Source: Azoarcus sp. CIB (GTDB taxonomy: Bacteria > Pseudomonadota > Gammaproteobacteria > Burkholderiales > Rhodocyclaceae). From it: 64,000 bases of DNA. The stretch is taken from NCBI RefSeq assembly GCF_001190925.1, contig NZ_CP011072.1, positions 1,984,001 through 2,048,000 on the forward strand. The letters are read 5' to 3'. Both the position numbers and the translations under genes were made by a program. How positions within the stretch are numbered: the stretch's first letter is position 1; each line of letters opens with the position of its first letter. Below are positions 999 through 47,967 of the stretch, piece by piece. The notes under the pieces were generated by a model, which was not told the origin of the DNA, searched no databases, and worked only from the letters and a program-made list of their open reading frames with translations.

Positions 999-1053
999 CC
1001 CGGGCAGTCGCTCGCCGCATGACTAGAAGAATAAATTCCGGAGACCGCAGACG

Positions 1054-2262: not shown

Positions 2263-2447
2263 GCGTTGCAAGCCCCGCGCCCTTTTCAAGGGATGCGCGG
2301 CGTACGGCAGTAAAGGATCACCGCCTCCCCGCCAACGGGAGACACGAGAGGCGCAAAAGCGCCCGGATGCAGCATCCCCAACCGGATTCAAACGAGTCAG
2401 TAGAGGCGCGCAAAGCGTCCGTGACCGAACCTGGAGGAGGAATGGGG

Positions 2448-3980
2448 ATGGACTTGTCCGAATGGATCGTCCGTCAGGCCGGGCTCGCGCCCGACAAGAC
2501 GGCGATCCGCTTTCCGGAGCGCGACCTGACGTACGCGGCGCTCGCCGCCGAGATCGATCGACTCGCGTCGGCGCTCCGCGTGTGTGGCGTGGAGCGCGGC
2601 GACTGCGTCGCGTTTCTCGCCTACAACCGTCCGGAAACGCTCGCGGCGCTGTTCGCCTGCGCTCGTCTGGGCGCGCTTTTCATGCCACTGAACTGGCGGC
2701 TCGCGGGCCCCGAGCACCGGCAATTGCTTGCCGACTGTCCGCCGAAGGTGCTGCTCGTGGAACCGCGCTTCGTCGGGCAGATCGACGCCTTCCGAGACGA
2801 GCTCGGCGCGGTGACGCTCGTGGCGTTCGGCGCCCCGCCGCAGGGCTGGATCGCCTTCGACGAGCTGATTGAGCGCGGCGGCGAGCCCGTGGCGGACGAC
2901 CCGCGCGTCGGACCCGACACGCCACTGCTTATCTGCTACACGTCCGGCACCACCGGCAAGGCGAAAGGCGCGCTCCTGACCCAGGACGCGCTCGCGTGGA
3001 ACGCCGCCAACAGCGCCGATCTGCACGGGCTCACGAGTGACGACCGCGTCCTGACGACGCTGCCGCTGTTCCACGTCGGCGGACTCAACAACCAGACGAC
3101 CCCCGCCCTGTCGCGCGGCGCCACCGTCGTCCTGCACCCGCGATTCGACGTCGATGAGACCTTCGATGCGATCGAAGGCGAGCGCATCACGCTGACCGTC
3201 CTCGTACCGGCGCAGATCGAGGCGATGGTGGCGCATCCCCGCTGGCCGAGCGCGGATCTCTCCCGCCTGCGGATGATCACGACGGGCTCGACGGTGGTGC
3301 CCGACCGGCTCTTCCGCGCAGTGCACGAACGCGGCATCCCGCTCGTGCAGATCTATGGCTCGACCGAAACCAGCCCGATCGCGGCCTATGTGAAGGCTGC
3401 CGACGCCTACACGCACGCCGGTTCGGCGGGACGTCCGGCGCGCCACTGCAGCGTTCGCGTTTCGGGCGAAGGTGGGGCGGACGCGAAGACGGGCGTCAGC
3501 GGCGAGATTCTCGTGCGCGGGCCCAACGTGATGGCGGGCTACTGGAACAACCCGCAGGCGAGCTCCGAGGCGCTGCGGGACGGCTGGTTCCACACCGGCG
3601 ACATGGGCCATTTCGATGCCGACGGCTGGCTGTGGGTGGACGGCCGCAAGAAGGAAATGATCATTTCCGGCGGCGAGAACATCTATCCCGCCGAGATCGA
3701 GAACCTCCTCATGGAGTCGCCCGACATCGCCGAAGTGGCCGTCGTGGGCCGCCCCGACGAGCGCTGGGGCGAATGCGTCGTGGCGGTCATCGTCACGCAC
3801 GAAGGCGCGACCCTCGATGCGGACGGCGTGCTCGGGCTCCTCGACGGCCGCATCGCCCGCTACAAGTTGCCCAAGGAAGTGTTGTTCATCGACGAACTCC
3901 CGCGCACCGCGCTGGGCAAGGTCCGCAAGGACGAAGTGCGGCGTCTGGTCGCGCGCAAAACGTTCATGGAGCACATCTGA
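2448..3980 (+). CDS. iaaB: AMP-forming acyl-CoA synthetase, probable indoleacetate-CoA ligase
   Basis: This 510-residue ANL-family ligase has the P-loop-like motif YTSGTTGKAKG (about 164-174), the acyl-adenylate motif IYGSTETSP, the hinge region TGDMGHFDADGWLWVDGR, KKEMIISGGENIYP, and the C-terminal catalytic lysine in LPRTALGKVRK. I chose the ATG at 2448 because GGAGGAGG at 2433-2440 gives 7-nt spacing; an upstream ATG at 2442 is too close. IaaB of Aromatoleum is an AMP-forming indoleacetate-CoA ligase, and this gene has the matching operon position. Its stop overlaps the next start (ATGA). It could accept other arylacetates. Confidence 0.85.
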   Translation: MDLSEWIVRQAGLAPDKTAIRFPERDLTYAALAAEIDRLASALRVCGVERGDCVAFLAYNRPETLAALFACARLGALFMPLNWRLAGPEHRQLLADCPPKVLLVEPRFVGQIDAFRDELGAVTLVAFGAPPQGWIAFDELIERGGEPVADDPRVGPDTPLLICYTSGTTGKAKGALLTQDALAWNAANSADLHGLTSDDRVLTTLPLFHVGGLNNQTTPALSRGATVVLHPRFDVDETFDAIEGERITLTVLVPAQIEAMVAHPRWPSADLSRLRMITTGSTVVPDRLFRAVHERGIPLVQIYGSTETSPIAAYVKAADAYTHAGSAGRPARHCSVRVSGEGGADAKTGVSGEILVRGPNVMAGYWNNPQASSEALRDGWFHTGDMGHFDADGWLWVDGRKKEMIISGGENIYPAEIENLLMESPDIAEVAVVGRPDERWGECVVAVIVTHEGATLDADGVLGLLDGRIARYKLPKEVLFIDELPRTALGKVRKDEVRRLVARKTFMEHI

Positions 3981-6106: not shown

Positions 6107-7800
6107 GCAACGCGAAAATCGATCCCATCCTGCTGTCCGTGTACGCCCGGACCTTCCGCTCGATCACCGACGAGATGAGCATCTCGATGGAGCAGACGAC
6201 GCGCTCGCCGATCCTGTGCGAGGCGAAGGACTACGTCACGGGCCTGTACGACGGCGACGGCAACATGCTCGAGCAGACCGAGAACCTGCCGATCCTCGCG
6301 TTCTCGCTCGCGCCGGTATGCAAGTACATCAAGGAGTACTTTGGCGACGAGATCTACCCGGGCGACGTGATCTTCCACAACGACGTGTTCAGCCTGGGCA
6401 ACCAGAACAACGACGTCGCGGTGTTCAAGCCGGTGTTCTTCGAGGGCCAGCTCGTCGCCTGGACCGCGGTCAAGGGTCACCAGGCCGACATCGGCGGCAA
6501 TGTCGCCGGCGGCTACAACCCGAACGCGGTCGAGGTGTGGCAGGAGGCGCTGCGCATCCCGCCGGTGAAGGTCGTCGAGAAAGGAAAGCTGCGCAAGGAC
6601 GTGTGGAACCTGATCTTCGCCAACGTGCGCCTCGACATCGTGCAGCACGACATGAAGGCCGAGATGGGGGCGTGCACCGTCGGCGAGCGGCGCTTCCTCG
6701 AGCTGATCTCGAAGTACGGCGTGGCGAGCTACGACGCGCACAAGCAGGCGCTCTTCGACGCCACCCGCCGGATGATGGAAGCCGAGATCGCCAAGATCCC
6801 GAACGGCCGCTACTCGGGCGAAGGCAAGGTGTTCTACGACGGCCGCCACGTCGGCTCGCAATTCACGATCCGTGTCGATATCGAGGTGAAGGACAAGGCC
6901 ATCCGATTCGACTACTCGCGCACCGATCCGCAGACCAACGGCTTCGTGAACGGCACCTTCACGTCGAGCGCATCGGCCACCATCCTGACCCTGCTGCAGA
7001 TGGTGAACCCCGACATCCCGCACAACGAGGGCATGGTGCAGCCGATCGAGATCGTGATCCCGGAGGGCACGATCCTCAACGCGGCCTACCCGAAGGCGAC
7101 GACCTTCGGCAACCACCTGTGCCCGCCCAACGCCGACGCCATCCAGCGCGCACTCGCCCCGGTGATGCCCGAGCGCGTGACCGCGGGCTGGAACAATCTG
7201 CTCGCGAGCCTCACCACCGGCATCGACCCGAAGACCAACGAGAAATACGTCGACATCGGCTTCATGGGCCTGAAGGGCGGCTCGGGCGCGATGCTGGGCA
7301 CCGACGGCTACGACCACATCGGCATGATCGACGCGTCCGGCGGCGTGCTCGACCAGGACTACGAGATGTTCGAGCAGCAGACCCCGCATCGGCTCATCCG
7401 CCACGAGCTGCTCGCCGACTCGGCCGGCGCCGGCGAATGGCGCGGCGGGCTGGGCGTCGAGACGATCTTCGAGATCGGTTCCAACGACACGCAGCTCGTG
7501 ACTTTCGGCGACGGCGACTTCGAGCCGGCGTTCGGACTCTTCGGCGGCGGCGATGGCGGCCTGAACTTCATCCGCCTGCACTATCCCGACGGGCAGACCG
7601 TCGTGCCGAAGAACAAGGACCTGATCACCGGCGTCCCGAAAGGCACGATCTATCACCAGGTCGCGAGCGGCGGCGGCGGCTACGGCGATCCGAAGCGGCG
7701 CGACCGCAAGCTCCTCGCGGAGGAGATCCGCAACGGCGTGATCTCCGAGCAGGCGGCGCGCGAGCTGTACGGGTTCGAGCCCGGGCAGGTGACCGGATGA
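6103..7800 (+). CDS. iaaE: hydantoinase/oxoprolinase family subunit B
   Basis: This 565-residue HyuB-type subunit shows the family landmarks: an N-terminal R-x-I-x-D-E-M region (RSITDEMSISMEQTTRSP), the metal-binding-like GHQADIGG segment, and a glycine-rich C-terminus (SGGGGYGDPKRRD). It pairs with the preceding ATPase subunit to form the ring-opening amidohydrolase. The start is the ATG at 6103, preceded by GAAGGAGG and overlapping the upstream stop. Acetone carboxylase-type enzymes use homologous subunits, but their small third subunit is absent here. This supports hydrolysis rather than carboxylation. Confidence 0.85.
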   Translation: MSNAKIDPILLSVYARTFRSITDEMSISMEQTTRSPILCEAKDYVTGLYDGDGNMLEQTENLPILAFSLAPVCKYIKEYFGDEIYPGDVIFHNDVFSLGNQNNDVAVFKPVFFEGQLVAWTAVKGHQADIGGNVAGGYNPNAVEVWQEALRIPPVKVVEKGKLRKDVWNLIFANVRLDIVQHDMKAEMGACTVGERRFLELISKYGVASYDAHKQALFDATRRMMEAEIAKIPNGRYSGEGKVFYDGRHVGSQFTIRVDIEVKDKAIRFDYSRTDPQTNGFVNGTFTSSASATILTLLQMVNPDIPHNEGMVQPIEIVIPEGTILNAAYPKATTFGNHLCPPNADAIQRALAPVMPERVTAGWNNLLASLTTGIDPKTNEKYVDIGFMGLKGGSGAMLGTDGYDHIGMIDASGGVLDQDYEMFEQQTPHRLIRHELLADSAGAGEWRGGLGVETIFEIGSNDTQLVTFGDGDFEPAFGLFGGGDGGLNFIRLHYPDGQTVVPKNKDLITGVPKGTIYHQVASGGGGYGDPKRRDRKLLAEEIRNGVISEQAARELYGFEPGQVTG

Positions 7801-8926
7801 ACTTCGATCTCACCGACGAACAGCGCGCGATCCGGGACACCTTCGCGCGCTTCTGCGACGAGCGCATCGCGCCGCAAGCGGCCGCGCTCGACGAGGCGCG
7901 CGCGTTCCCGCGGGCGCTGTTCCGCGAGCTCGCCGAGCTCGGCTTCTTCGGCATGCGCTATCCCGAATCGGTCGGCGGCACCGGGCTCGCGCTCACCGAG
8001 TTCTGTCTCGCGCTGACCGAGGTCGCGCGCGGCTCGATGTCGCTCGCCGGCGCGGTCGCGATGCAGTCGCTGATGGGCACGAAGTTCCTGCAGCTCCTCG
8101 GCAACGCCGACATCGTCGAGCGCCTCTTCAAGCCGGCGCTTCGCGGCGACCGGATAGGCGCGATCTGCATGACCGAGCCGAACGCGGGCTCCGACCTCGA
8201 ATCGATCGCGACCACCGCGACCCGGGTCGACGGCGGCTACGTCCTCAATGGTCAGAAGACCTGGATCACATCCGCCCCGGTCGCGGACTTCTTCACGGTC
8301 TTTGCGCGCGCGGGTGAAGAGAAGAAGCTGACGATCTTCCTCGTCGAGAAGGAGTTCAAGGGCCTCGTCGTCGGCCGCGAGATCCACAAGATGGGCGTGT
8401 GGGCGCTGCCGACCTCCGAAGTCGCCTTCAACGACTGCTTCGTGCCGGACAGCCACCGCCTGTCGAAAGAGGAAGGCGACGGCGAGGGGCACCTGAGGAA
8501 GACGCTCGCCGAGATCCGCATCATCACCGGCGCGATGGCGCTCGGCGTCGCGCGCGCGGCGCTCGACGAGGCGGTGCGCTACGCCGGCGAGCGCCAGCAG
8601 TTCGGCAAGCCGATCAACCGCTTCCAGGCGATCCAGCTGAAGCTCGCCGAGATGGCGACCGGGCTGGAGGCCGCCACCGCCCTCGTCCACCGCGCCGCGT
8701 GGCTGTGCGACGCAAAGCGTCCGCACCACAAGGAGGCCGCGATGGCGAAGCTCTTCGCGACCGAAACCGCCGCATCGATCTGCGACCAGGCCGCACGCGT
8801 GCTCGCGTCCTATGGCTACGCGATGGAGTACCCCGTGCAGCGCTACCTGCGTGACGTGCGCTTCACGCTGATCGGCGGCGGCACCAGCGAAATCCTCAAA
8901 CTCGTCATTGCGAAGGAGGTGAGCGC

Positions 8927-8930
<4 letters not shown>
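7797..8930 (+). CDS. iaaF: acyl-CoA dehydrogenase, probable decarboxylating (2-amino)benzylmalonyl-CoA dehydrogenase
   Basis: This 377-residue acyl-CoA dehydrogenase has the FAD/substrate-binding motifs CMTEPNAGSD and TWITSAPVAD and a full C-terminal helical domain (ERQQFGKPINRFQ). The C-terminal GTSEI motif is intact. However, the glutamate that precedes GT in many family members (Y-E-G-T) is replaced by glycine (I-G-G-G-T, position about 361). IaaF of Aromatoleum couples oxidation of benzylmalonyl-CoA to loss of CO2, a reaction that does not need a base at C2, so the missing glutamate fits. The gene overlaps both neighbours by ATGA and directly precedes the mutase whose product it would use. 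Confidence 0.85.
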
Positions 8931-9351
<421 letters not shown>

Positions 9352-9355
<4 letters not shown>

Positions 9356-10965
9356 ACGACCGCGCCCAACCGACGCTGAAGCGCGTCACCAACGAATCCG
9401 GGCTCGAAGTCCAGCCGTTTTATACCGCGGCCGATGTCGCGGCGAGCGGCGGCGACGCGATGATCGGCCAGCCCGGCGAATTTCCCTTCACCCGCGGCAT
9501 CCACCGCGAGATGTACCGCAAGCAGCCGTGGACGATGCGCCAGTACGCGGGCTTCGGCAATCCGGCCGACACCAACCAGCGCTTCAAGTACCTGATCGCG
9601 AACGGGCAGACGGGGCTCAACGTCGCCTTCGACCTGCCGACGCAGATCGGCCTCGACTCGGACGACCCGCTCGCCCAGGGCGAGATCGGCCGCGTCGGCA
9701 TGTCGGTCGACACCCTGCGCGATTTCGAGATCGCATTCGACGGCATCGATCTCGACAAGATCACCGTGTCGATGACGATCAACGGTGCCGCGGCCATCGC
9801 GATCGCGATGTATCTCGCGATGGCCGAGAAGCGTGGCTACGATGTCAAGAAGCTGCGCGGCACCGCGCAGAACGACATCCTGAAGGAGTTCATCGGCCGC
9901 GGCACCTGGATCTTCCCGGTCGAGCCGTCGATCAAGCTCGTCGGCGACACGATCGAGTACTGCGCCGAGCACGCGCCCAAGTACAGCCCGGTGTCGGTGT
10001 GCGGCTACCACATCCGCGAATCGGGCGCGACGCCGGCGGAGGAAATGGCCTACGCCTTCTGCATCGCCCGCGCCTATGCCGACGAGGTGATCGCGCGGGG
10101 GCTCCACGTCGACGAGTTCGCCGGGCGGCTGTCGTACAACTTCAACATCTTCGGCAACCTCTTCGAGCAGGTCTGCAAGTTCCGCGCGGGGCGCAGCCTG
10201 TGGGCCAAGATCATGAAGGAGGAGTACAAGGCCGAAAAACCGGGCTCGATGTGGCTGCGCATGATCGCCGCGGGCGGCGGCGGCGGGCTGACCTTCGAGC
10301 AGCCCGAGCTCAACATCGTGCGCGGCGCCTACTACGCGCTGATCAGCGCGCTCTCGGGCACGCAGACGATGGCGCTGTGCTCGTACGACGAGGCCTACAC
10401 CATCCCGACAGAGTATTCGGCCCGCATCTCGCTGCGCACCATGCAGATCCTCATCGCGGAGATGGGCCTCACCGAGACGGTCGATCCGCTCGGCGGCTCG
10501 TACTACGTCGAGACGATGACGAACCAGATGCGCGACAAGATGGAAGAGATCATCGCCGAGACCGACGCGCAGGGCGGCATCGTCAAGCTGGTGTCCGAAG
10601 GCGCGATCCAGGCGAAGGTCTCCGCGCAGGCGTACAAGATGCAGCGCGACATCGAGAGCGGCGCGTTTCCCAAGGTCGGCGTCAATTGCTACCGCAACGA
10701 CCAGGAGGACGAGCACAAGGTCGATTTCCACCCCTACGACGAGGACGACGCGCGCGTGCAGATCGAGTCGCTGAATCGGGTGCGCGCCGAGCGCGACGCC
10801 GACCGCGTCGCCCACACGCTCGCGGGCGTCGGCGAGGCCGCGCGCGCGGGTGCCAACGTCATGCCGGCGATCGTCGAGGCGGTGAAGGCCTACGCGAGCG
10901 TCGGCGAGATCACGCAGGAACTGGTGAAAGTGTTCGGACGGTACCAGGAACCGATCCGCTTCTGA
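9352..10965 (+). CDS. iaaH: large subunit of a B12-dependent acyl-CoA mutase, probable (2-aminophenyl)succinyl-CoA mutase
   Basis: This 537-residue protein carries the MCM TIM-barrel domain: FPFTRGIHREMY, TMRQYAGF (tyrosine as in methylmalonyl-CoA mutase), AFDLPTQIG, GTAQNDILKEFIGRGTW, VCGYHIRESGA, and DPLGGSYYVE. Two active-site regions differ from methylmalonyl-CoA mutases as I remember them. The PSMR arginine that pairs with the substrate carboxylate is lysine here (PSIKLV). The THSQTSG loop is replaced by a run of five glycines (AAGGGGGLT), which would open space for a bulky aryl group. The context (hydantoinase, decarboxylating dehydrogenase) argues for the arylsuccinyl-CoA substrate rather than methylmalonyl-CoA. 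Confidence 0.88.
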
Positions 10966-10975
10966 GGGACATTCA

Positions 10976-11842
10976 ATGACCGCAATTGAAAGATACGCCG
11001 CGCCGCAGAGCCTCGACGAGGCGCTCGGCATCCTGCAGCAGGGCGAGGTGACCATCCTCGCAGGCGGCACCGACCTGATGCCGCAGACGAAAGCCGGCCG
11101 CATCGCGTTCAAGCCGACGCTGCTGAACATCGGCCGCGTCGCGGGACTGAAAGGGGTCAGCCTCGACGGCGCGTACCTGCGCATCGGGGCGCTCACCACG
11201 ATCAGCGAGCTCCTCCGCGATCCGCTCGTCGTGCAGCACGCGCCGGTGCTCGCCGAGGCCTGCGATCAGTTCGCGAGCGACCAGATCCGCAACGCAGGCA
11301 CGCTCGGGGGCAACATCAACAACGCTTCGCCCGCGGGCGACACGCTGGTGCCGCTGATCGTGCTCGACGCGGAGGTCGAGCTCGCGTCGAAGCCCAATGG
11401 CAGCGTCACCACGCGGCGCCTGCCGCTCGCCGAGTTCTTCACCGGCCCCGGCAGGACAAAGCGCGCCGCGAACGAGCTGCTCACCGCGGTGCGCATCCCA
11501 CTGCCTCGGCCCGGCCACGTCGCGCGCTTCTACAAGTTCGGCACGCGCCCCGCGCTGGATATCTCGACGATCTCCATCGGCATCGCCGGCATCAAGCGCG
11601 ACGGTGCGCTCACCGACATCCGCGTCGCCTTCGGCGCGGTTGCCCCGACGCCGGTCCGCGCGCCGCGCACCGAAGCCGCACTCGAAGGCCGTCCCCTCGA
11701 CGCCGAGGCCATCGAAGCCGCCGCCGACGCCGCCCGCGACGAGGTGAACCCCATCGACGACGTGCGCGCCAGCGCGTGGTACCGCAAGGAACTGATCCAC
11801 AACATGACCAGAAGGATGCTCGACCATGTTGCTCACGCATGA
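10976..11842 (+). CDS. molybdenum hydroxylase, FAD-binding (medium) subunit
   Basis: This 288-residue CoxM/XDH-type FAD subunit has ILAGGTDLMP near residue 30 and RNAGTLGGNINNASPAGD around residues 105-122, the two pyrophosphate-binding loops of this family. The C-terminal CO_deh_flav_C domain follows. It lacks the cysteine-containing insertion that gives 4-hydroxybenzoyl-CoA reductase an extra [4Fe-4S] cluster, so it is a hydroxylase-type subunit. It lies 10 bp after the mutase and its 3' end overlaps the iron-sulfur subunit by 17 nt. The enzyme is the best candidate for water-derived hydroxylation at C2 of the indole ring. By operon order these three genes probably match iaaI-K, but I am not certain of the published letters. 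Confidence 0.85.
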   Translation: MTAIERYAAPQSLDEALGILQQGEVTILAGGTDLMPQTKAGRIAFKPTLLNIGRVAGLKGVSLDGAYLRIGALTTISELLRDPLVVQHAPVLAEACDQFASDQIRNAGTLGGNINNASPAGDTLVPLIVLDAEVELASKPNGSVTTRRLPLAEFFTGPGRTKRAANELLTAVRIPLPRPGHVARFYKFGTRPALDISTISIGIAGIKRDGALTDIRVAFGAVAPTPVRAPRTEAALEGRPLDAEAIEAAADAARDEVNPIDDVRASAWYRKELIHNMTRRMLDHVAHA

Positions 11843-12299
11843 CATCGAATTCACGCTGAACGGCGTCAAAAAAAGGCTCACCATCGACGTCACGATGAAC
11901 GCGCTCGACTTGCTGCGAGACGTCGTCGGGCTGACCGGCACGAAATACGGCTGTGGCGAGGGCGAATGCGGCGCGTGCACGATTCGCGTCGACGGCGAGA
12001 CGCGCAACTCCTGCCTGATGTTCGCCGTGGACTTCGACGGGCGCGACATCGTAACGATCGAGGGACTCGCCGCCGACCCCAAGGCCGATGCACTGCGCGA
12101 GTCCTTCGTCGAGCACGGCGCGGTCCAATGCGGCTTCTGCACGCCGGGCATGGTCATGCAGGCCTCCCACATCCTCGAGACGCATCCGGACGCCGATGCC
12201 GAGACGATCAAGCGCGGCCTCGAAGGGAACCTGTGCCGCTGCACCGGCTACAAGAAGATCGTCGACGCGGTCGAGTCCGCGTGCTGCGGCGCGAAGTGA
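11826..12299 (+). CDS. molybdenum hydroxylase, [2Fe-2S] (small) subunit
   Basis: This 157-residue protein has both iron-sulfur cluster motifs of the XDH family. The N-terminal plant-ferredoxin-like site is CGEGECGACT with a further Cys about 20 residues on (RNSC). The C-terminal site is QCGFCTPGM plus GNLCRCTGY. It overlaps the FAD subunit by 17 nt and precedes the molybdopterin subunit by 10 nt. It carries electrons from the Mo centre to FAD. An added C-terminal ACCG pair of cysteines is not part of the canonical clusters. Confidence 0.9.
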   Translation: MLLTHDIEFTLNGVKKRLTIDVTMNALDLLRDVVGLTGTKYGCGEGECGACTIRVDGETRNSCLMFAVDFDGRDIVTIEGLAADPKADALRESFVEHGAVQCGFCTPGMVMQASHILETHPDADAETIKRGLEGNLCRCTGYKKIVDAVESACCGAK

Positions 12300-12309
12300 G
12301 GGGCCCACG

Positions 12310-14718
12310 ATGAACGTCGCAGAAAAACCCGTCATCACGGCCGAATCGCTGATCGGCCAGCGCATCCAGAAGAAGGACGCGCCCGAGAAGGCCGCCGGCA
12401 AGACGCGCTACATCCAGGACATGATCGTGCCGGGCATGCTGCACGCGAAGATCCTGCGTTCGGCCCGCGTGCACGCACGAATCAAGAGCATCGACACTTC
12501 CGCGGCGAAGGCCCTGCCCGGCGTGCATGTCGTCCTCACCGCGGCGGACGTGCCCGACCAGCAGCCGATCGGCGTCGCGCGCGACCACCTGCCGCTGAAG
12601 GGCGAGCGTGTCCGCAGCCTGCGCGACGAGATCGCCGCGGTGGCCGCCGACAGCGACGAGATCGCCGAAGCCGCGCTAAAGCTGATCCGCGTCGAATACG
12701 AGGACTTGCCGGTCATCGCGACGCCCGAGGACGCGATCAAGCCGGGCGCGCCGCTGATCCACCCCGCCCCGCTCGACGCCCACGGCCGCCCGAAGTCGCT
12801 GCCGCCCAAAACGCCGATCGCGTTCGCCGGCAAGCCCGACAACATCGCGATGCGCTTCGACTACACGCACGGCGACATCGCGCAGGCCGAGGCCGAGTCC
12901 GACGTCGTCGTCGAGGACAGCTTCCAGCTGCACTACGTGACGCACTGCTGCATGGGCGTGTCGGGTGTCATCGCCGAGTTCGACGCGTCGGGCAACCTGC
13001 TGATGTACTCCAACACGCAGGTGCCCTTCCTGCACAAGCGCGAGTTCGCCGAATACCTGAACATCGATCCGAGCCGCGTGCGCATCATCCAGCCGCCCAT
13101 CGGCGGCGGCTTCGGCTCGAAGCTCGACATCTATCCGTTCGAGGTCATCTGCATCTTCCTCGCGCGCGCCGCGAAGCGCCCCGTGAAGATGGTTTTTACG
13201 CGCGAAGAAGAGTTTCTGGCCTCGCCGACGCGCCAGCCGGTGCTGCTGACGCTGCGTTCGGGCTGCAAGAAGGACGGCACGCTGACCTTCCGCCAGGTGC
13301 ACACGCTGCACGACAACGGCGCCTACACGTCGTGGGGCGCGACGACGCCGTTCGTCATGATGCAGACCTTCTCGTCGCTGTACCGGGTGCCGGCCTGCGA
13401 CTACCACACGACCGTCGTGTACACGAACAACCCCTACGCCGGCTCCTTCCGCGGCTACGGCAACCTGCAGGCGACCTTCGCGATCGAGCAGCACATGGAC
13501 ATGCTGGCCGAGAAGATCGGCATGGATGCGCTCGACTTCCGGCTGAAGAACGCGCAGGACGCGGGCGAAGTAACCGGCCAGGGCATGACGTTCAAGAGCT
13601 GCGGCTTCAAGGAATGCCTGACTACGGCGGCCGAGCGCAGCGATTACCGGAAGAAGCACGCCGACAATATCGCGAACCGCAACGCGCGCGGCCCGGTCAA
13701 GCGCGGCATCGGCATCGCGTCGATGCTGCACGTCGGCGGCGGCGCGAAAATCTATCCGTCGGACGGCTGCGGCACGATCCTGAAGCTCGACGATTTTGCG
13801 AACATCACCCTCATCACCGGCGCGTCCGAGATCGGCCAGGGCTCGGAAACGGTCCTGTCGCAGCTGGTCTGCGAGGAGCTGGGGCTGCCGATCTCGGCGG
13901 TCACCGTGGTCAATAACGACACCGCGATCACGCCGTGGGACGTCGGCGTGCATGCGAGCCGCACGACCTTCATCGCCGGCAACTCCGCAATCGGCGCGGC
14001 GCGCAAGGCGAAGGCGAAGATCCTGGCGGCGGCAGCGAAGAAGCACGGCTGCGACGAAGGTGCGCTCGACCTGCGCGGCGGTTTCGTCGTCGTCGCCGAG
14101 ACCGGCGAGCCCGTGGTCGAGCTGGCGCGCCTGATGCGGAACCTGCACTTCTCCGACAAGGCCGAGCTCGTCATGACGACCTTCTACTACGAGCCGCCGA
14201 GCGTGCATCAGGACAAGGCCTTCAAGGGCGACGTGTCGGCCGCCTACGCGTGGGCCGCCCAGGTCGTCGAGGTCGAGGTCGATACCGACACCGGCATCGT
14301 GAAGATGACGAAAGTCACCGGCACGCACGACGTCGGCCGCGTGCTCAACCGCCTCGGCCTCGAAGGGCAGATCGAAGGCGGCGTCGTCATGGGCCAGGGC
14401 TACGCGCTGACCGAGAACCTGATCGTCGAGAACGGCGTCACGCGCAACCCGAACTTCCGCGACTACAAGCTCGTGACCGCGCCCGAGATCCCGGAGATGG
14501 ACATCACCTTCGTCGAGTCGATGGACGGCGAAGGGCCGCAGGGCGCCAAGGGCGTCGGCGAGGCGCCGGCGATCTGCATCGCCGCGGCCGCCGCGAACGC
14601 GATCTACAACGCGACCGGCGTGAGGATGTTCGCCCTGCCCTTCACGCCGGAAGCGGTGTACCGGGCCTTACGCGGCGCGGCGCCGAAACCCCACTGGCCC
14701 GCGTGGAAACCGGAATGA
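12310..14718 (+). CDS. molybdenum hydroxylase, molybdopterin (large) subunit
   Basis: This 802-residue XDH-family catalytic subunit has PIGGGFGSK (MPT-cytosine-dinucleotide contact), AGSFRGYGN, the SEIGQGSET glutamine loop, and the catalytic glutamate in [10 protein letters not shown] near the C-terminus. There is no twin-arginine signal, so it is cytoplasmic. It is the likely indoleacetate (or indoleacetyl-CoA) 2-hydroxylase. Maturation should need an XdhC-type sulfuration/insertion factor, which is present in the opposing operon as a fusion with MeaB. The stop overlaps the start of the CoA-transferase gene. Confidence 0.88.
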
Positions 14719-15911
14719 AGCCGCGCACCGTACTCTCGATGGAGCAGGCGCTGTCGATGCCCTACGCGACGCTGCGCTTCGCGCAGCTCGGCTGGCGCGT
14801 GATCCGCCTCGAATCGACGCCATCGGGGGATGGCCTGCCCGGCGATCCCAACCGCTACATCGGCGGCAAGGTCGCCGACGACGACCGGCGCACCTACTTC
14901 ATTGCGCCCAACGTCGGCAAGGAGGCGATCGCGCTCAACCTCAAGGAGCCCGACGGCCAGGCGCTGCTCAGGCGTCTGCTGGTCGAGCTCGACGTCGACG
15001 TGTTCTGCTGCAACACCGTGCCGCGCCGCTACAAACAGCTCGGCATCGACTACGACACGCTCGCCGCGGCGAAGCCGGACCTGATCTGGGCGGGGATTTC
15101 GGCGATGGGCCCGGACTACCCGGATGCCCCCGGCTACGATCCGGTGATCCAGGCGATGGCCGGCTACATGGAACTCACCGGTGCGGCCGACGGGCCGCCG
15201 ACGCTCGCCGGCGTGCCGATCATCGACCTCAAGGCGGGCGACGAGGTCTATGCAAATGTGATGATGGCGCTGCTCGAGCGCGCCGAGAGCGGCAAGGGCA
15301 CGCGCATCGACGTCTCCATGCTGCAGGCCGCCGCGTCGTGGCTCATCACGACGCTGCCGCTGCTCGATTTCGACTGCCAGCCGTCGGAGATCACGCGCTG
15401 CGGCAACGAGCACCGCAAGTTCATCCCGACGAACGTCTATCCGACGGCCGACGGATTCATCTACATGGCGATCGGCAGCGACGTGCAGTGGAAGCGCCTG
15501 TGCGAGATCGCGAAGTTCGCATCGATCGGCAACGCCGCGCGCACGACCAACGAAGGTCGCAATCGAGAGCGCGACACAATCCACCGTGACGTCGCGGCCG
15601 TCACGCAGCGTTATCCGACCGCCGAGATCGTCGCCGACTTCCGCGATGCGACGATCCCGCACGCGCCGATCCACGACATCCCGGCCGTGCGCGAGATGGA
15701 AGCCATCCGACGGCGATTGACGACCACGCGCATGCCCGGCGGCATGCTCGTGCATATGCAGCCGATGGCGGTCGACGTCGCCGCTACCCATGGCGGAGAG
15801 CTGCCGTTCGCGCCGCGCTACGGCCAGCACACCGATGCGGTGCTGCGCGAGGCCGGATGCAGCGAGGACGAAATCGCGCTGCTTCATGCGCGAGGAATCG
15901 TCGCCGGCTGA
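14715..15911 (+). CDS. iaaL: family III (CaiB/BaiF) CoA-transferase, probable phenylsuccinyl-CoA:arylacetate CoA-transferase
   Basis: This 398-residue CaiB/BaiF-family protein shows [14 protein letters not shown] near the N-terminus, [32 protein letters not shown], and the candidate catalytic aspartate D171 in VPIIDLKAG. The C-terminal half contains the RTTNEGR-type small-domain segment and PIHDIPAV. The N-terminus is a little shorter than the usual family start. IaaL of Aromatoleum exchanges CoA between indoleacetyl-CoA and (2-aminophenyl)succinate, and the position here matches. It is coupled by ATGA to the molybdenum subunit. Confidence 0.85.
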
Positions 15912-16068
15912 GCCCGGGCACCGCATCGTCATGCGGCGCCCCACGGGGAGGGGCGCCGCTCCCGACTCACGAACCCCGGAAACCATCGACGGCGAGAGGA
16001 GCGCGCGGACCCGATCCGCACGCGCGACAAGAGGTCCTTGTGGTGCACACCGTAGGAGACATCAGAAC

Positions 16069-17217
16069 ATGAAGATGCTTGGCATTCGATTGGCGCTGTC
16101 CGGACTCGTTCTGGCGGCGTCGTTGTCGGCGCACGCGCAGGTGAAGATCGGCGTCGTGTCCTCGGCGACCGGGCCGACCGCGCTGGTCGGCATTCCGCAA
16201 AAGAACACGGTGGCGCTGCTGCCGGCGAAGATCGGCGATCTCAGCGTCGAGTACATCGCGCTCGACGACGCGAGCGATCCCACCGCGTCGGTCACCGCCG
16301 TAAAGAAACTGATCTCGGAGCAGAACGTCGATGCGATCATCGGGCCCTCGGGCTCGCCCAACGCGATGGGCGTGATCCAGTTCATCGCCGACGCGGGCGT
16401 GCCGCTGCTCGCGCCGGTGGGCACCGCCGCCGTCGTGACCCCGATGGACGACAAGAAGAAGTGGGTGTTCAAGACCACCCAGAACGACGACATCATCGCG
16501 ACGGCGCTGGTCGAGCACATGGTCAGGAAGGGCGTGAAGACGGTCGGCTTCATCGGCGTCGGCGACCCCTACGGCGAGAACTGGTACAAGGTGTTCTCGG
16601 CGCTCGCGGACAAGAACGGCATGAAGATCGTCGCCAACGAGCGCTTCCAGCGCCAGGATGCGTCGGTCACCGGCCAGAGCCTGAAGATCCTCGGCGCCGC
16701 GCCGGACGCGGTGCTCGTCGCCGCCGCCGGCGGCCCCGCCGTGCTGCCGCAGACCACGCTCGTCGAGCAGGGCTACAAGGGACAGATCTACCAGACGCAC
16801 GGCGCCGCGCTGCCCGACTTCCTCAAGCTCGGCGGCAAGAAGGTCGAGGGCACGGTCCTCGCCGCGAGCCTGATGCTGGTGCTGCCCGAGATCGCCGACA
16901 ACCACCCCTCGAAGAAGATCGCCGCCGACTACATCGCCGCCTACGAGAAGGCGCACGGCACGAAACCGGCGACCTTCGGCGCGAACGTCTTCGATGCCGG
17001 CCTGCTGCTGCAGCAGGCGATCCCGGCCGCGGCGAAGGTGGCCAAACCCGGCACAAAGGAGTTCCGCGCGGCGCTGCGCGACAGCCTCGAGCAGACCCGC
17101 GAGCTCGTCGGCACCCAGGGCATCTACAACATGAGCGCCACCGACCACAGCGGCTTCGACGAGCGTGGCCGCGTCCTCATCGCCGTCAGGGACGGCGGCT
17201 GGACGCTCGCAAAGTAA
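16069..17217 (+). CDS. branched-chain amino acid ABC-type periplasmic substrate-binding protein
   Basis: This 382-residue protein has a Sec signal peptide (MKMLGIRLALSG... ending SAHA-Q, cleavage near residue 23) and the LivJ-type periplasmic fold: KIGVVSSATGPTALVG, IIGPSGSPNAMGV, GDPYGENWYK. GTAG-like start context TAGGAGAC precedes the ATG at 16069. It is the last gene of the plus-strand catabolic operon. Binding proteins of this class often carry aromatic acids, so indoleacetate capture is a reasonable guess. No permease or ATPase genes accompany it in the window, so it must share a transporter encoded elsewhere or act as a sensor. Confidence 0.8.
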   Translation: MKMLGIRLALSGLVLAASLSAHAQVKIGVVSSATGPTALVGIPQKNTVALLPAKIGDLSVEYIALDDASDPTASVTAVKKLISEQNVDAIIGPSGSPNAMGVIQFIADAGVPLLAPVGTAAVVTPMDDKKKWVFKTTQNDDIIATALVEHMVRKGVKTVGFIGVGDPYGENWYKVFSALADKNGMKIVANERFQRQDASVTGQSLKILGAAPDAVLVAAAGGPAVLPQTTLVEQGYKGQIYQTHGAALPDFLKLGGKKVEGTVLAASLMLVLPEIADNHPSKKIAADYIAAYEKAHGTKPATFGANVFDAGLLLQQAIPAAAKVAKPGTKEFRAALRDSLEQTRELVGTQGIYNMSATDHSGFDERGRVLIAVRDGGWTLAK

Positions 17218-17468: not shown

Positions 17469-18674
17469 ATGTTCGCGACCGCGTCCCGATTGTTTCCGGC
17501 AGCGCTATGGGTGAGCGCGTTCCGCCCCTTCTTCCTGCTCGGCACGCTGTATGCGCCGCTCCTCATCGGCGCCTGGCTGGGGGCGGGGTTCGGATGGTGG
17601 AGCGGGCCGGTCGGCGACATGCCGGGCGCGCTGTGGCACGGCCACGAAATGATCTTTGGCTTCTCGTCCGCGATCATCCTCGGTATCGTGCTCACCGCGT
17701 TGCCCAGCTGGGCCGGCACCGAGGAAATCCACGGCGCCCGTCTCGCGCTCCTCGTCGCCGCCTGGCTCGCGGGCCGGCTCGCGTTCTGGGCGCTGCCGCT
17801 GTTGCCGGCCACCGTTGCGGCGGTGACCGACTGCCTGCTCTTTCCGCTGGTGTTCGCCACCGTCGCACCGCAATTGCTGCAGGTGAAGAACCGGTTGTAC
17901 CTGCTGCTGCTGCCGGTTCTCGCGGCCTTCTTCGCGGCCAACCTCGCCTTTCATCTGGGCATCGGCGCGGGCAACCCCGCTTTCGCCACGATCGCCCTGC
18001 ACGGCGGGGTCTATACGATCCTCACCCTGTACGTGCTCAAGGGGGGCGTGCTGACACCCGTCTTCACGGGAAACGCCCTGCGGGAGAAGGGGCGCGGGGA
18101 ACAGGCACCGTTCCGGATATGGCTCGACGTCACCGCGGTGGGCCTCGTAGTCGCCCTCGCCGCGCTCGACCTCGCCGGCGCCCCGGCCCGCTGGGTCGGT
18201 CTCACCGCCCTCGCCTGCACGCTCGTCCATGCCTGGCGCGTCGGACGCTGGCAAGGCTGGCGCGTGGCCGACGTCCCCCTCCTCCTCGTCATGCATCTCG
18301 GCTTCGCCTGGCTGATCCTCGCCTTCGCACTCAAGGCGCTCGCAGGCCTAACCGGCCTCGTTTCGCACACGATGTGGCTGCACGCCTTCACGGTCGGAAG
18401 CCTCGGCATGATGATGCTCGGCCTGATGACCCGCGTGACCCTTCGCCACACCGGCCGTCCCCTGAAGCTGCCGGCCGCGATGCGCTTAGCCTGCGCCCTC
18501 GTGTTCACCGCGGCGATCGCGCGGCTCGCGCTGTCGATGCCCGACCTGCGCCCGGCCGCGATCACCGTCGCCGCGGTGCTTTGGGCGGCAGCTTTCGCGA
18601 TCTACGTGTCCAGGTTCGGCCCGCTGCTCGCCGTGCCGAGCCTCCCGCGCAAAGCCGGTGTTCTTAACAAATAA
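17469..18674 (+). CDS. nnrS: NnrS family membrane protein
   Basis: This 401-residue polytopic protein has about 12 hydrophobic segments and typical NnrS features: an N-terminal FRPFFLLGT motif, ALWHGHEMIFGFSSAII with conserved histidines, and HTMWLHAFTVGSLGMMMLGLMTRV. NnrS is a haem- and copper-associated membrane protein linked to NO and nitrosative stress in denitrifiers. It lies between the two converging operons, about 250 bp after the catabolic genes, and is probably transcribed separately. Its presence supports a denitrifying host but does not prove a role in indoleacetate catabolism. Confidence 0.88.
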   Translation: MFATASRLFPAALWVSAFRPFFLLGTLYAPLLIGAWLGAGFGWWSGPVGDMPGALWHGHEMIFGFSSAIILGIVLTALPSWAGTEEIHGARLALLVAAWLAGRLAFWALPLLPATVAAVTDCLLFPLVFATVAPQLLQVKNRLYLLLLPVLAAFFAANLAFHLGIGAGNPAFATIALHGGVYTILTLYVLKGGVLTPVFTGNALREKGRGEQAPFRIWLDVTAVGLVVALAALDLAGAPARWVGLTALACTLVHAWRVGRWQGWRVADVPLLLVMHLGFAWLILAFALKALAGLTGLVSHTMWLHAFTVGSLGMMMLGLMTRVTLRHTGRPLKLPAAMRLACALVFTAAIARLALSMPDLRPAAITVAAVLWAAAFAIYVSRFGPLLAVPSLPRKAGVLNK

Positions 18675-18744: not shown

Positions 18745-19167
18745 TTAGCCGCCAGCGAGTGCGATCGTCAGGGCTTCGAAGGGAATCATCACGCACCCAT
18801 GCCGGCTACGATAGCCATGCACCGCCGCGAACAGAGCGATCTCGTCGGCCCCTTCGGGCATACCGGACACCTCCCCGGCGGCCAGCATCGCCGCCATGCG
18901 CGCGCGCAACCGTTCGACCTCGCCCGGCGTGCGGCCGAGAGCATGCAGGCCGAGCAGCGACGCCGATGCCCGACACAGGAGGCAACCCTTGACCTCGTGC
19001 GCGATCGCCGCGATGCGGCCGTCGACGAGTTCGACATCGATCCGCACGCGATCGCCGCACATGGGGCTGTCGCGAAGCGCCGAACCCGTCGGGGCGGTCA
19101 GGCGGCCGGCGCCGTGGGCGGCGTCGGCAAGTTCGCGGATGCCTTTGTTGTAGAGGACTTCGATCAT
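18745..19167 (-). CDS. IscU/SufU-like iron-sulfur cluster scaffold protein
   Basis: This 140-residue protein has the cysteine and aspartate pattern of SufU/IscU scaffolds: SPMCGDRVR (C37, D39), GCLLCRASAS (C62, C65), and RHGCVMIPFEAL (C125). The extra Cys in GCLLC is unusual. The start is the ATG at 19167, overlapping the stop of the upstream molybdopterin-binding gene. It is the last gene of the minus-strand accessory operon. A dedicated scaffold fits the many Fe-S subunits in this locus. A SufS-type desulfurase at 49.4-50.7 kb could be its sulfur donor. Confidence 0.75.
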   Translation of the reverse strand: MIEVLYNKGIRELADAAHGAGRLTAPTGSALRDSPMCGDRVRIDVELVDGRIAAIAHEVKGCLLCRASASLLGLHALGRTPGEVERLRARMAAMLAAGEVSGMPEGADEIALFAAVHGYRSRHGCVMIPFEALTIALAGG

Positions 19168-20238
19168 CGGACTGGAGTCGCCATGCTTACGGTCGCGGCG
19201 TGGGCGGGAACTCGTGCAGAGTGGCCGGCCCCGTCGTTGTCGGGGTTCGCATCGTCGCCCTCGTCCGGTGCGCTGCGAATCAGGCCGCCGACGCCCATGC
19301 GCATGATGTCTTCGCGCGTCGGGGGGATGCCGGCCATCAGGCGCGGCAGCACGAGGTCGAGGCCGTTGCTCTTTCGGGAGCGGCCACAGCCGGGCAGGAT
19401 CACGACCGGCACGGCGCCGATGCGTCCGAGCACGAGCATGTTGCCGGGCTCGACGGGCATGCCGAAATGCTCGATCGTGCCGCCGACCGCCGTCACGGCG
19501 GCGGGGGCGATGTCCTTGCGGTCCTTGGCGACGGTGGCGCCGCACACCATCACGAGTTCGCAACCGGCCGCGAGCGCCTGGTGCAGCATGGATTCGAGGG
19601 CGTCGCGGCGTGGGGCCGCGCAGCGCGAGCGCGAGCCGGCCGCCGAGGGCCTCGACCCGCTCGCGCGTGACCTTCGCGGTCGCCCCGAAAATCGAGTCTT
19701 TCATGCCGGGCAGTTCGGTCTGGATCAGCGCCGCGCGGCAGGGCTTCAATTCGGCGACGGCGATCGGCGGGGCGCCGGCGGCGATCGCGCGGCACCCATC
19801 GAGCAGGCGCCGCGGCACGGCGAACGGGATGATCTTCACGGTGGCGACGACCTGGCCGGGACGGACGACCGCATGCGGCGGCAGCGTCCCGATGGCGATG
19901 GCCTCGTCGAGCAGGTTCATCCGGTGGATGCCTTCGGCGTCGATGCGCAGCACGCCGGCTGCCAACGCGTGGAGGTTCCCGCGGCCGGCGCGCGGAGGGC
20001 GTGTCTCCATGTTCGCGCCGACGAGGAGCGCGGCCAGTTCGGCTGCGGCGACGTCCTCGGCGACGTCGTCCGGCCCCAGCCGGGCGCCGGCGACGGTCGA
20101 GAAACCCTCGTCGTCGAGCAGATCGAGGTCGCGCGCCGACAGCACGCGGCCCTTCTTCAGCGTCCGTCCGCCGAGCTTCAGCGTGTGGGCGAGCATCACG
20201 CCTTCGGCGGCGGTCAGGGGAAATTCGTCGAAGATCAT
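19164..20238 (-). pseudogene. molybdopterin-binding (MoeA/CinA-like) protein, interrupted by one frameshift
   Basis: Two frames together make one protein of about 358 residues. The first (from ATG 20238) reads MIFDEFPLTAAEG, LKKGRVLSARDLDLL, ARLGPDDVAEDVAA, VVATVKIIPFAVP and runs to about 19610. The second frame continues with ALESMLHQALAAGCELVMVCG, DRKDIAPAAV, GGTIEHFGMPVEPGNML and PGCGRSRKSNG, ending at 19164. This is the molybdopterin-binding domain found in Moco cytidylyltransferase-type proteins, without the C-terminal nucleotidyltransferase part. One surplus base near 19600-19625, in a GC-rich run, separates the halves. The rest is uneroded, so a sequencing error is as likely as a true mutation. 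Starts and stops overlap both neighbours. Confidence 0.75.
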
Positions 20239-20444
20239 CGGACACTCCTCCGGGCGCGTCGCGGCCCATTCAGGCGCGACGCTTCAGGCAGCAAGGCGGC
20301 TTCGGCGCTCAACAGCGCGGCTTCGCCGAGCAGGGTTCGAGCCGGTACGGGTCGAGCCGGAGTCGGGGCCAGCAGTCCCGCAACAGGTCGATCGCTCATC
20401 ATTTCGTCCTCGTGATGAAGCCCATTTCCGGCGACGTCGATCAT
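20235..20444 (-). CDS. small translationally coupled ORF, unknown function
   Basis: This 69-residue ORF starts with an ATG that overlaps the stop of the MeaB-XdhC gene and ends with a TGA that overlaps the next start. Both junctions are ATGA, the same coupling as in the rest of the operon. The sequence is rich in Pro, Ala and Arg (LLAPTPARPVPARTLLGE), has no membrane segment and no recognisable domain. An internal start at MMSD is possible. It may instead be spacer DNA that keeps ribosomes moving between its neighbours. Confidence 0.45.
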   Translation of the reverse strand: MIDVAGNGLHHEDEMMSDRPVAGLLAPTPARPVPARTLLGEAALLSAEAALLPEASRLNGPRRARRSVR

Positions 20445-22264
20445 CGGCCGTGCCTCGCCTGGATCACCTCGGCGAGGATCGCGACCGCGATCTCGGCGGG
20501 CGCGCGGCCGCCCAGATCGAGGCCGACGGGCGCGCGGATGCGCGGAATCGCGTCGGCCAGTCCTGCCTCGGTGAGCCGTGCGACGCGCTTCGCGTGCGTG
20601 CGCGTGCTGCCGAGCGAGCCGATGTAGAAGGCGGGGCTCGTGAGCGCGATCGTCAGCGCCGGATCGTCGAGCTTGGGGTCGTGCGTCAGCGTGATGACAG
20701 CAGTCTGAGCGTCTAGCTTCAGGCGTTCGAGAGCCTCGTCCGGCCACTCCGTCGACACCTCGACGTTCGGCAGCCGTTCAGCCGTCGCGAACGCACGGCG
20801 CGGGTCGACGACCACGACGTCGAATCCGGCAATGGCCGCCATCGGCGCGAGCGCCTGGGTGATGTGCACCGCACCGACGATGATCATGCGCGGCGCGCCG
20901 ACGTGGCAGCGCACGAAGAGCGCGGCCTCATTCGCCCCCTCATTTGCCCCCTCCCCCACGGCGAGCGCACCGCTGCGGTTCGCGGCGAGCCGCGCGCGCG
21001 TCTCGGCGAGCTGGGCGTCATCGAGGGGGAGCGCGCCTGCGACGGCGTCGTCGAAGACTAGCGCGTGCGCGCCGTCGCCGAGCCGGGTTACGACCACGAC
21101 CGGGCGTTTTTCGCGCCGCGCGGCCAGGAGCGGAGCGAACAAATCGTCATCGACGCGCTCGACGAGCACCTGCACGCGACCGCCGCACGCCAGCCCCACT
21201 TCCCACGCCTGCTCGTCGCTGACGCCGAATTCCAGTAGCCGCGCCTTGCCGTCGGCGATCGAATCCTGCGCCTCGCCGATCACGGCGCCCTCGATGCAGC
21301 CGCCCGAGACCGAACCGACGAAGGCGCCGCCCTGCTCGACCGCGAGGTGGCTCCCATCGGGGCGCGGGGACGATCCCCAAGTGCGCACGACGGTCGCGAG
21401 CGCGACGCCGCGGCCCTCGGCGCGCCAGCGCTCGAGCTGGGCGAAGAGCTGGTCGTCCGTCGCCGGCGCGGACGGGGTGGGCGCCGGCGCGGCGCTGCGG
21501 GTTTTGAGGCGTCGAGCGACGCCCGCTACCTGCGCATGAGAATCGATGCGGTCCGCCAGCGCCGCCACGCCCTCGCCGCGCGTCGCCACCGTGGTCAGGA
21601 CGGGCACCTCCCAGCCTTCGCCGCGCGCGCCGCCGCGCGCTTCGAGGTCGCGCACGGTGGCCGCGGCGACCGGCGAATCGGCCTTGTTCACGACGAGAAT
21701 ATCGGCGATCTCGAGCACGCCGGCCTTGATCGCCTGCACCTCGTCGCCGAGGCCTGGCGCGCATACGACAATGCGCGTGTCGGCCAGGCGTGCGACTTCG
21801 ACTTCCGACTGGCCGACGCCGACGGTCTCGACGATGACGACGTCGAAGCCGGCTGCGTCGAAAAGGTCCACCGCCCGAGCGCTTGTCCGGGACAGCCCGC
21901 CGAGCTGGCCGCGCGACGACAGCGAGCGGATGAAGACGCGCTCGTCACTGCCGTGCGTGCCCATGCGTACCCGGTCGCCAAGCAAGGCGCCGCCGCTGAC
22001 CGGACTCGAAGGATCGACGGCGACGACGGCGACACGCTTGCCACGTAGCACCAGTTCGCCGAGCAAGACGTTGATCAGGGTCGACTTGCCGACGCCTGGC
22101 GCCCCGGTGATGCCAACCACGTGCGCGCGGCCCATTCGGCCGGCGAGCGACGCGAGCAAGGCGTCGGCGCCGGGCAGATCATTCTCGATCGCAGTCAATG
22201 CGCGGGCGAGCGCCGGGCGCGAACCGGCCGCGATCTCGTCGGGGAGCGGGCTTGGCGGATGCAT
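20441..22264 (-). CDS. fusion protein: MeaB/ArgK-type GTPase chaperone + XdhC/CoxI molybdenum-hydroxylase maturation factor
   Basis: This 607-residue protein joins two maturation factors. Residues about 1-250 form a MeaB G-protein: P-loop GAPGVGKST (54-62), DPSSP (84-88), ETVGVGQSE (146-154) and NKAD (193-196). MeaB loads and protects B12 mutases. After a Pro/Ala-rich linker (about 255-270), residues 275-607 are XdhC: RTWGSSPRPDGSHLAV, GSVSGGCIEGAV, GLACGGRVQVLVE, then a Rossmann segment (MIIVGAVHITQAL) and YIGSLGSTRTHAKR. XdhC sulfurates and inserts Moco into XDH-family enzymes. The operon opposite encodes exactly one B12 mutase and one XDH-type hydroxylase. The usual C-terminal dimerisation arm of MeaB is replaced by XdhC. 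Confidence 0.9.
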   Translation of the reverse strand: MHPPSPLPDEIAAGSRPALARALTAIENDLPGADALLASLAGRMGRAHVVGITGAPGVGKSTLINVLLGELVLRGKRVAVVAVDPSSPVSGGALLGDRVRMGTHGSDERVFIRSLSSRGQLGGLSRTSARAVDLFDAAGFDVVIVETVGVGQSEVEVARLADTRIVVCAPGLGDEVQAIKAGVLEIADILVVNKADSPVAAATVRDLEARGGARGEGWEVPVLTTVATRGEGVAALADRIDSHAQVAGVARRLKTRSAAPAPTPSAPATDDQLFAQLERWRAEGRGVALATVVRTWGSSPRPDGSHLAVEQGGAFVGSVSGGCIEGAVIGEAQDSIADGKARLLEFGVSDEQAWEVGLACGGRVQVLVERVDDDLFAPLLAARREKRPVVVVTRLGDGAHALVFDDAVAGALPLDDAQLAETRARLAANRSGALAVGEGANEGANEAALFVRCHVGAPRMIIVGAVHITQALAPMAAIAGFDVVVVDPRRAFATAERLPNVEVSTEWPDEALERLKLDAQTAVITLTHDPKLDDPALTIALTSPAFYIGSLGSTRTHAKRVARLTEAGLADAIPRIRAPVGLDLGGRAPAEIAVAILAEVIQARHGR

Positions 22265-22362: not shown

Positions 22363-22755
22363 TCAATGGCGCGGAAACACCAGCCCGAAATCCTCGACGA
22401 AGTCCGCGAGGCCGGCGGCCTCCAGTCCGTCGAGCGACCTGAGCATGTAGGGATGGAGCCTGCCGCGTCGCACGAGCTGCGGCACCTCCGCGAGGCCCTG
22501 CTCCAACACCGCGGCCAGCGCATCCTGATCGGCGACGAGCAGCATCGCGACGTCGGCATCGAAATCTCCGCAGAAATCGCGCAGCGCGACGCTCGCTCCG
22601 TCCGGTGTTCCCCGCCACACGAGGACCCGGCCGCGGCGCGCGGAAAACGCGTCCTTCGTCAGCACGCCGACGGAGGCGTCCGCCGCGGCGAGCCCCTCGC
22701 GATCGAGCATCGCCTTCCATGCCGCGCAATCGAGCGCCGTTCCGGCCGTTTCCAT
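22363..22755 (-). CDS. hypothetical protein
   Basis: This 130-residue acidic, soluble protein lies 9 bp after the RidA-like gene and about 100 bp before MeaB-XdhC. Codon use matches its neighbours, so it is almost certainly real. It contains VGVLTKDAF, RGRVLVWRGTPDG, FDADVAMLLVADQDAL and a C-terminal ADFVEDFGLVFP. I recognise no family. The alternating beta and helix pattern suggests a small alpha/beta fold. It could be a partner of the flavoprotein or RidA-like protein of the same operon. Confidence 0.6.
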   Translation of the reverse strand: METAGTALDCAAWKAMLDREGLAAADASVGVLTKDAFSARRGRVLVWRGTPDGASVALRDFCGDFDADVAMLLVADQDALAAVLEQGLAEVPQLVRRGRLHPYMLRSLDGLEAAGLADFVEDFGLVFPRH

Positions 22756-47935: not shown

Positions 47936-47967
47936 TCTCGTCTCCTTGTATTTTTCTGCCGCGTCGC

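Follow-up and report, generated by a model that had tools for sequence, protein, structure and literature searches.

The window, by which we mean the whole 64,000-nucleotide stretch of DNA that we analysed, belongs to a genome assembled as a single contig of 5,257,030 bp. It opens with a plus-strand operon (315-17217) whose make-up looks like that of an iaa cluster, the predicted function of which is anaerobic indoleacetate degradation; the iaa pathway is the anaerobic breakdown of this plant hormone, auxin. The first part of the operon (315-8930) encodes a GntR regulator, a thiolase, a CoA ligase, hydantoinase-like A and B proteins (the A part named by eye), and an IaaF-like acyl-CoA dehydrogenase (7797-8930). 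These are followed by the B12-binding (8927-9355) and catalytic (9352-10965) subunits of an iaa-type mutase, the FAD (10976-11842), [2Fe-2S] (11826-12299), and Mo-binding (12310-14718) subunits of a Mo-hydroxylase, and a family III CoA-transferase with a periplasmic binding protein (14721-17217). Near its C terminus the dehydrogenase carries IGGGTSEI, in which GGG replaces the YEG of acyl-CoA dehydrogenases; a GGG motif is described for IaaF (PMC8360864). The operon shares its CoA ligase, mutase, IaaF-like GGG dehydrogenase, CoA transferase, and binding protein with the iaa operon of Aromatoleum aromaticum (PMC8360864). The words chaperone, maturation, XdhC, and molybd are absent from the main text of that paper, which calls iaaD a non-functional truncated protein.

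Outside this operon and facing it lies a gene of 607 codons on the minus strand (20441-22264; ATG at 22264, stop at 20441-20443) whose frame is uninterrupted. MeaB is a helper that loads vitamin B12 into a mutase, and XdhC is a helper that loads the molybdenum cofactor. The protein joins the two. Residues 1-252 (21509-22264) form a MeaB GTPase domain with Walker A, switch I, II, and III, and NKAD motifs; residues 253-269 (21458-21508) form a variable Pro/Ala-rich linker; residues 270-372 (21149-21457) form the N-terminal XdhC_CoxI domain; and residues 373-607 (20444-21148) form the C-terminal Rossmann domain of XdhC. All three Pfam families scored above their curated cut-offs: MeaB (PF03308) with 290.7 bits against 23.1 over residues 19-258, XdhC_CoxI (PF02625) with 83.6 bits over residues 280-347, and XdhC_C (PF13478) with 133.5 bits over residues 460-600. 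No mutase or B12-binding domain was found in the chain by Pfam scan. Against the NCBIfam models, the MeaB half lies above the cut-off of TIGR00750 (303.2, cut-off 240.75) and below that of NF006958 (242.4, cut-off 329), and the XdhC half falls short of the equivalog thresholds set for NF045664 and TIGR02964. The single polypeptide and the Pro/Ala linker announced in the earlier note are thus both borne out.

The G1, G3 (with its E), and G4 motifs are all present in the MeaB half. Across 28 aligned fusion proteins ETVGxGQS is invariant, Walker A is invariant save at one position, and in NKAD the K and D are invariant while the N and A vary in some. C323 and C360 of the XdhC N-domain are likewise invariant; the conserved cysteine of R. 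capsulatus XdhC is C82. An AlphaFold2 model of the fusion (mean pLDDT 84.9, pTM 0.57; pLDDT below 50 at linker residues 259-265) matched the XdhC homologue 2we8 (E 5e-29) and MeaB 4jyb (E 1e-20) in a fold search, with 8dpb also matched. The fusion therefore resembles the XdhC/CoxI factors in both Pfam domains, in its fold match, and in the existence of two-ORF forms, and differs from them in its N-terminal MeaB. Its other half resembles the standalone chaperones MeaB and MMAA in G-domain motifs, switch III residues, TIGR00750 match, and fold.

Several small genes surround the fusion. NnrS (17469-18674, plus strand) lies between it and the iaa operon; several relatives also have NnrS close to the fusion or to the operon. 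A NifU_N-like small protein (18745-19173, minus strand, start approximate) ends the cassette. Downstream of the fusion is a molybdopterin-binding-like gene (19164-20238, minus strand), labelled by eye and with no Pfam match. The window has it in two frames and the 64 remaining loci of the 65 compared have it in a single one, which reflects either a real frame break or a sequencing error in this genome. On the other side, a 130-aa protein with no Pfam match (22363-22755, minus strand) is found again next to the fusion in several relatives and next to some unfused XdhC cassettes.

Conservation of the fusion and its two forms

Could the two genes have been joined by a sequencing or assembly error? 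The neighbouring molybdopterin-like gene, frame-broken in the window alone, gives this idea its one point of support. It is refuted, however, to the point of being practically negligible, because seven further loci in six genomes beyond the window (L001-L007) keep all three domains in the same single frame, and purifying selection acts on the domains in the tested pairs. In four pairs, all from Aromatoleum, dN/dS was 0.12-0.25 for MeaB, 0.03-0.09 for the XdhC N-domain, and 0.15-0.18 for the XdhC C-domain; for the linker it reached 0.64. The fusion is real and conserved, and it adds to the known MeaB fusions. Like IcmF it is a natural MeaB fusion; unlike IcmF, which joins the chaperone to its client, it joins MeaB to the chaperone of another cofactor. 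We found no treatment of MeaB and XdhC together in the open-access literature (subscription literature lies mostly outside this search).

The survey scanned one genome per species and took the best 80 of 506 loci, so its fusion counts are lower bounds. Among these 80, at least 20 loci have MeaB joined to XdhC (L001-L018, L028, and L050); two of the 20 are put down as fusions by inference, L028 (genome G018) being cut by a contig end and L050 (G019) having a frame-broken MeaB. Next to the seven three-domain loci, 11 (L008-L018) have MeaB joined to the XdhC N-domain only, with the Rossmann domain as a second ORF. The N-domain-only form is the commoner among the carriers listed, and the three-domain form appears to be a late derivative rather than the basic arrangement. 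No fusion was found on plasmids, where nine records match by the XdhC part only.

In split loci the second ORF mostly begins at a 4-nt (A/G)TGA that overlaps the first stop. With MeaB-fused and unfused loci pooled, this overlap occurs in 25 of 28 split-type loci that have both XdhC pieces; among the 25, L182 and L190 repeat L012 and L017, seven loci have no MeaB, and L050 has its broken MeaB. It is absent from L013, L014, and L185. In three more loci (L183, L184, and L186) this comparison found no second XdhC piece, and they fall outside the 28. The Rossmann piece lies kilobases away from the first piece in L013, L014, G484, and G428.

In an XdhC tree of 85 rows the window's group, with its joined form, and other Aromatoleum, with their split form, are sisters (support 100/96), as are the joined L007 and the split L240 (100/90). 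Some free XdhC proteins outside the fusion group are likewise joined, and two-ORF XdhC also exists without MeaB. The simplest reading is that the two XdhC pieces would have been joined on two separate occasions, in a tree that counts changes and is blind to gain versus loss. The tree omits second copies of included loci and loci without both pieces; it also omits L183-L185, whose genomes are entered as L236, L238, and L240, and it labels L050, with its broken MeaB, as free. We also considered whether an ATGA relic at the joined junction could prove which way the joining went. ATGA occurs there in the window, L001-L003, and L006, and its spacing gives no clean single step. The direction of joining rests on the tree for this reason.

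Co-occurrence with the iaa mutase and clients of the two halves

An iaa-type mutase is present in 18 of 19 fusion genomes, at 82-99% identity among the matches listed and in three of the 18 only in pieces; the exception is a MAG (G014) with the fusion and no iaa-type mutase above 45%. The 19 include G018 and G019, whose fusions are the two put down by inference. From the other side, the fusion occurs in 13 of 27 iaa-mutase genomes (one full, 12 N-domain only) versus 0 of 30 without the mutase, and the XdhC subfamily (57-93% identical) occurs in 21 of the 27 versus 0 of the 30, in comparisons whose Fisher tests ignore kinship. The 27 are matches at E 1e-170 from 5 of 399 order genomes and 22 of 199 family genomes and exclude the window's own genome; the mutase coordinates of G375, G451, and G546 are identical to those of G011, G016, and G005, so the counts of 19 and 27 overlap. 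The 30 are a hand-picked, non-random set from the same surveys: their best XdhC matches are at most 47% identical, 15 of them have another XdhC at 38-47%, and in one (G438) a free MeaB matches at 55%. Within the window's genus, G458, G510, and G546 have both mutase and fusion and G575 and G599 have neither, and in Aromatoleum evansii both the fusion and the iaa mutase are present twice. The distance from fusion to mutase is 9-56 kb in the nine genomes measured, the window's included, all with both genes on one contig. The architecture is associated with iaa clusters, and it does not accompany all of them, the MeaB-XdhC(N) fusion being absent from 14 of the 27.

Which enzymes does the fusion serve? 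The earlier note had named the facing operon as the source of both clients. Its coordinates for them, 8927-10965 for the mutase and 12310-14718 for the Mo subunit, were right. It had also counted exactly one client of each type, which holds for the operon and not for the window, where a second, XDH-like Mo-hydroxylase lies at 45051-48849 (minus strand).

For the MeaB half the proposed pairing is strong. The window's genome has three MM_CoA_mutase genes and three MeaB domains above the cut-off, with a fourth match below it. One mutase is adjacent to a MeaB gene at 4.56 Mb, and another shares a single 1607-codon, IcmF-like open frame with MeaB at 4.545 Mb. With two of the three mutase/MeaB pairs linked, the iaa mutase is therefore left with the fusion, and this elimination makes it very likely that the MeaB half serves the iaa B12 mutase. 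Elimination is a stronger argument for the MeaB client than the gene at the operon head. In G526, G559, and G588, which have unfused XdhC, the head of the iaa operon has a divergent free MeaB beside it; G458 and G484, both with the fusion, have none in this place. None lies within 3-11 kb of the operon head in the unfused G528, G030, G337, G435, and G424 either, so that 3 of 8 unfused iaa genomes examined have MeaB in this position. In L225, L256, and L257, free MeaBs at the operon head end in a tail that stands where the usual C-terminal extension would be.

From co-occurrence only, the probable client of the XdhC half is the iaa Mo-hydroxylase. Elimination fails here, as the window's genome has seven MoCoBD_1 proteins, one of them at 45051-48849, and four XdhC_C places. 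The iaa Mo subunit is itself of two kinds, 79-97% and 56-58% identical to the window's, beneath very similar chaperones. For example, the Mo subunit is 56% identical in A. buckelii (L131) and 91% in A. anaerobium (L124), with very similar fusion proteins, and perhaps the hydroxylase was replaced under one chaperone between these two. The kind of Mo subunit does not explain splitting: full-fusion genomes all have the 79-97% kind, and split genomes have either.

An alternative keeps the iaa mutase as client of the MeaB half and gives the XdhC half another Mo-hydroxylase, either CoxL-like or the XDH-like enzyme at 45-48.8 kb, with the join reflecting gene neighbourhood. The surplus of MoCoBD_1 proteins in the genome and the second Mo-hydroxylase in the window would fit this. 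So would a CoxL-like Mo-hydroxylase operon that separates the N piece of XdhC from the C piece in G484 and G428, and other Mo-hydroxylases that adjoin some unfused relatives, including Pollutimonas L053, whose unfused XdhC pieces adjoin another hydroxylase and which has no iaa-type mutase. We nevertheless consider this alternative unlikely. The XdhC subfamily follows the iaa mutase in the genome comparison, the iaa hydroxylase is the nearer of the window's two to the fusion, and no Mo subunit lies by the unfused cassette within the stretches examined of G419, G467, G526, G528, and G559 (G424, whose stretch ends 0.8 kb beyond the cassette, is excluded from this check). The CoxL-like genes between the XdhC pieces occupy L236:5049-8678 and L238:8972-12601; the large subunit of L236, the only one scanned, is below the CODH cut-off (668 vs 991).

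Loss of the MeaB dimerisation extension

The earlier note described complete GTPase motifs and a complete XdhC. Both descriptions hold, and the MeaB as a whole is not complete: TIGR00750 covers only 1-249 of its 300 positions in the window's fusion, and the C-terminal dimerisation extension is gone, its place taken by the linker. The note overlooked both this loss and the exchange of partners at the same end. The TIGR00750 match ends at 235-254 in five other fusions and reaches 294-299 in three free MeaBs. In MeaB the extension serves dimerisation, the active GTPase state is at the dimer, and switch III residues reach across the dimer in that state (PMC9974510). The residues with these roles are kept in the fusion, seven out of seven (roles as given in PMC9974510): D84, R100, E146, Q152, D174, Q177, and K180 are invariant in 28 fusion proteins and correspond, by alignment to 8dpb, to D92, R108, E154, Q160, D182, Q185, and K188 of MeaB. 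The next residue of MeaB, K189, which contacts the mutase (PMC9974510), is A181 in the window's fusion by the same alignment. The missing extension, the XdhC that follows, and this alanine set the fusion apart from MeaB/MMAA.

R. capsulatus XdhC is a dimer (PMC2997495). An extension that is lost, cross-dimer residues that are kept, and a dimeric XdhC family together suggest that the XdhC half most likely holds the G domains together, an argument that is weakest for the N-domain-only fusions. It is possible, if on the doubtful side, that the two halves are independent modules on a flexible linker, each doing its usual job, and that the fusion is neutral or just fixes co-expression. The linker is of low confidence in the model, whose pTM is 0.57, it varies in length, and its sequence is little conserved; moreover, fused, split, and separate forms all accompany iaa clusters. 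Independence is at odds, however, with the absence of the MeaB extension from all six fusions scanned, with the cross-dimer residues kept, and with a 52-row MeaB tree in which the 32 Mo-linked rows cluster (support 91/82, not starred).

We therefore favor, at a probability of roughly 55%, a dual cofactor-maturation protein of the iaa-type pathway that arose by stepwise fusion and has an XdhC-aided dimer. The MeaB half would act as a G-protein chaperone dedicated to the iaa B12 mutase, and the XdhC half would bind the molybdenum cofactor and deliver it to the iaa Mo-hydroxylase (10976-14718). On the simplest account, the first step would have been a fusion of MeaB with the leading ORF of a two-ORF XdhC, in which the N-domain is coupled to a Rossmann ORF, and the two XdhC pieces would have been joined later, in the window's Aromatoleum lineage. 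The XdhC half would also hold the MeaB G domains together, replacing the lost extension. That the two loading reactions are coupled, or coordinated in stoichiometry or in space as the earlier note proposed, is a hypothesis.

Why would two such helpers be joined? Metallochaperones are usually conceived as serving one cofactor and one client. Here, two unrelated metal-cofactor services may be wired together for one pathway, and, if so, a conserved protein serving both cofactors would represent a novel means of matching how the two are loaded. The fusion also offers a natural test of the MeaB mechanism, as the dimer extension is lost and every tested cross-dimer residue (PMC9974510) is kept. Finally, for anaerobic auxin breakdown it offers a candidate chaperone of both the mutase and the Mo-hydroxylase, and goes unmentioned in the main text of PMC8360864.

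Partner exchange at the MeaB C-terminal end

XdhC is not the only partner found at this end of MeaB. The Mo-linked rows of the MeaB tree comprise 21 N-domain fusions, eight full fusions, two XdhC_C-like forms, and one MocA-like form; the tree omits L028, L050, L116, L117, matches below 120 bits, and repeats. The two XdhC_C-like tails (L061 and L065) score 22.4 and 22.5, below the Pfam cut-off of 29.7, and L065 aligns with the window's protein over 85 aa at 35% identity (pairwise E 7e-11). The MocA-like form is an 813-aa protein of G435 (L248:1997-4438, minus strand) made of MeaB, a middle part named molybdopterin-binding by eye, and a MocA-like part that passes Pfam NTP_transf_3 and is below the MocA equivalog cut-off (108.7 vs 186.45). 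Both G435 and G103, the latter with an XdhC_C-like form, carry the iaa mutase and lack the MeaB-XdhC(N) fusion.

Other related MeaBs carry at the same end a nitroreductase (L048, and weakly L194, at 29.9 bits with no stretch passing alone) or a 4HBT thioesterase (L059, L064, and L213); the tails of L067 and L195 are thioesterase-like by eye. Thioesterases and nitroreductases are generally known to dimerise. IcmF G domains are monomeric at rest (PMC10481361). Speculatively, the MeaB extension could be a swappable socket, replaced by self-dimerising parts (XdhC, thioesterase, or nitroreductase) or by Mo-cofactor parts, with assembly of the partner controlling the G-domain dimer. In the window's protein, delivery of the Mo cofactor would then license B12 loading, as a checkpoint across cofactors. 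We regard this extended proposal as rather improbable.

Some minor observations concern these other forms. L048, L064, L213, and the MeaB of L194's genome (L233) adjoin other mutase genes. The tails of L068 and L201 belong to no Pfam family, and the galT label of L068 in the tree was given by eye. The 813-aa gene of G435 is divergent from a gene that, by eye, resembles indolepyruvate ferredoxin oxidoreductase.
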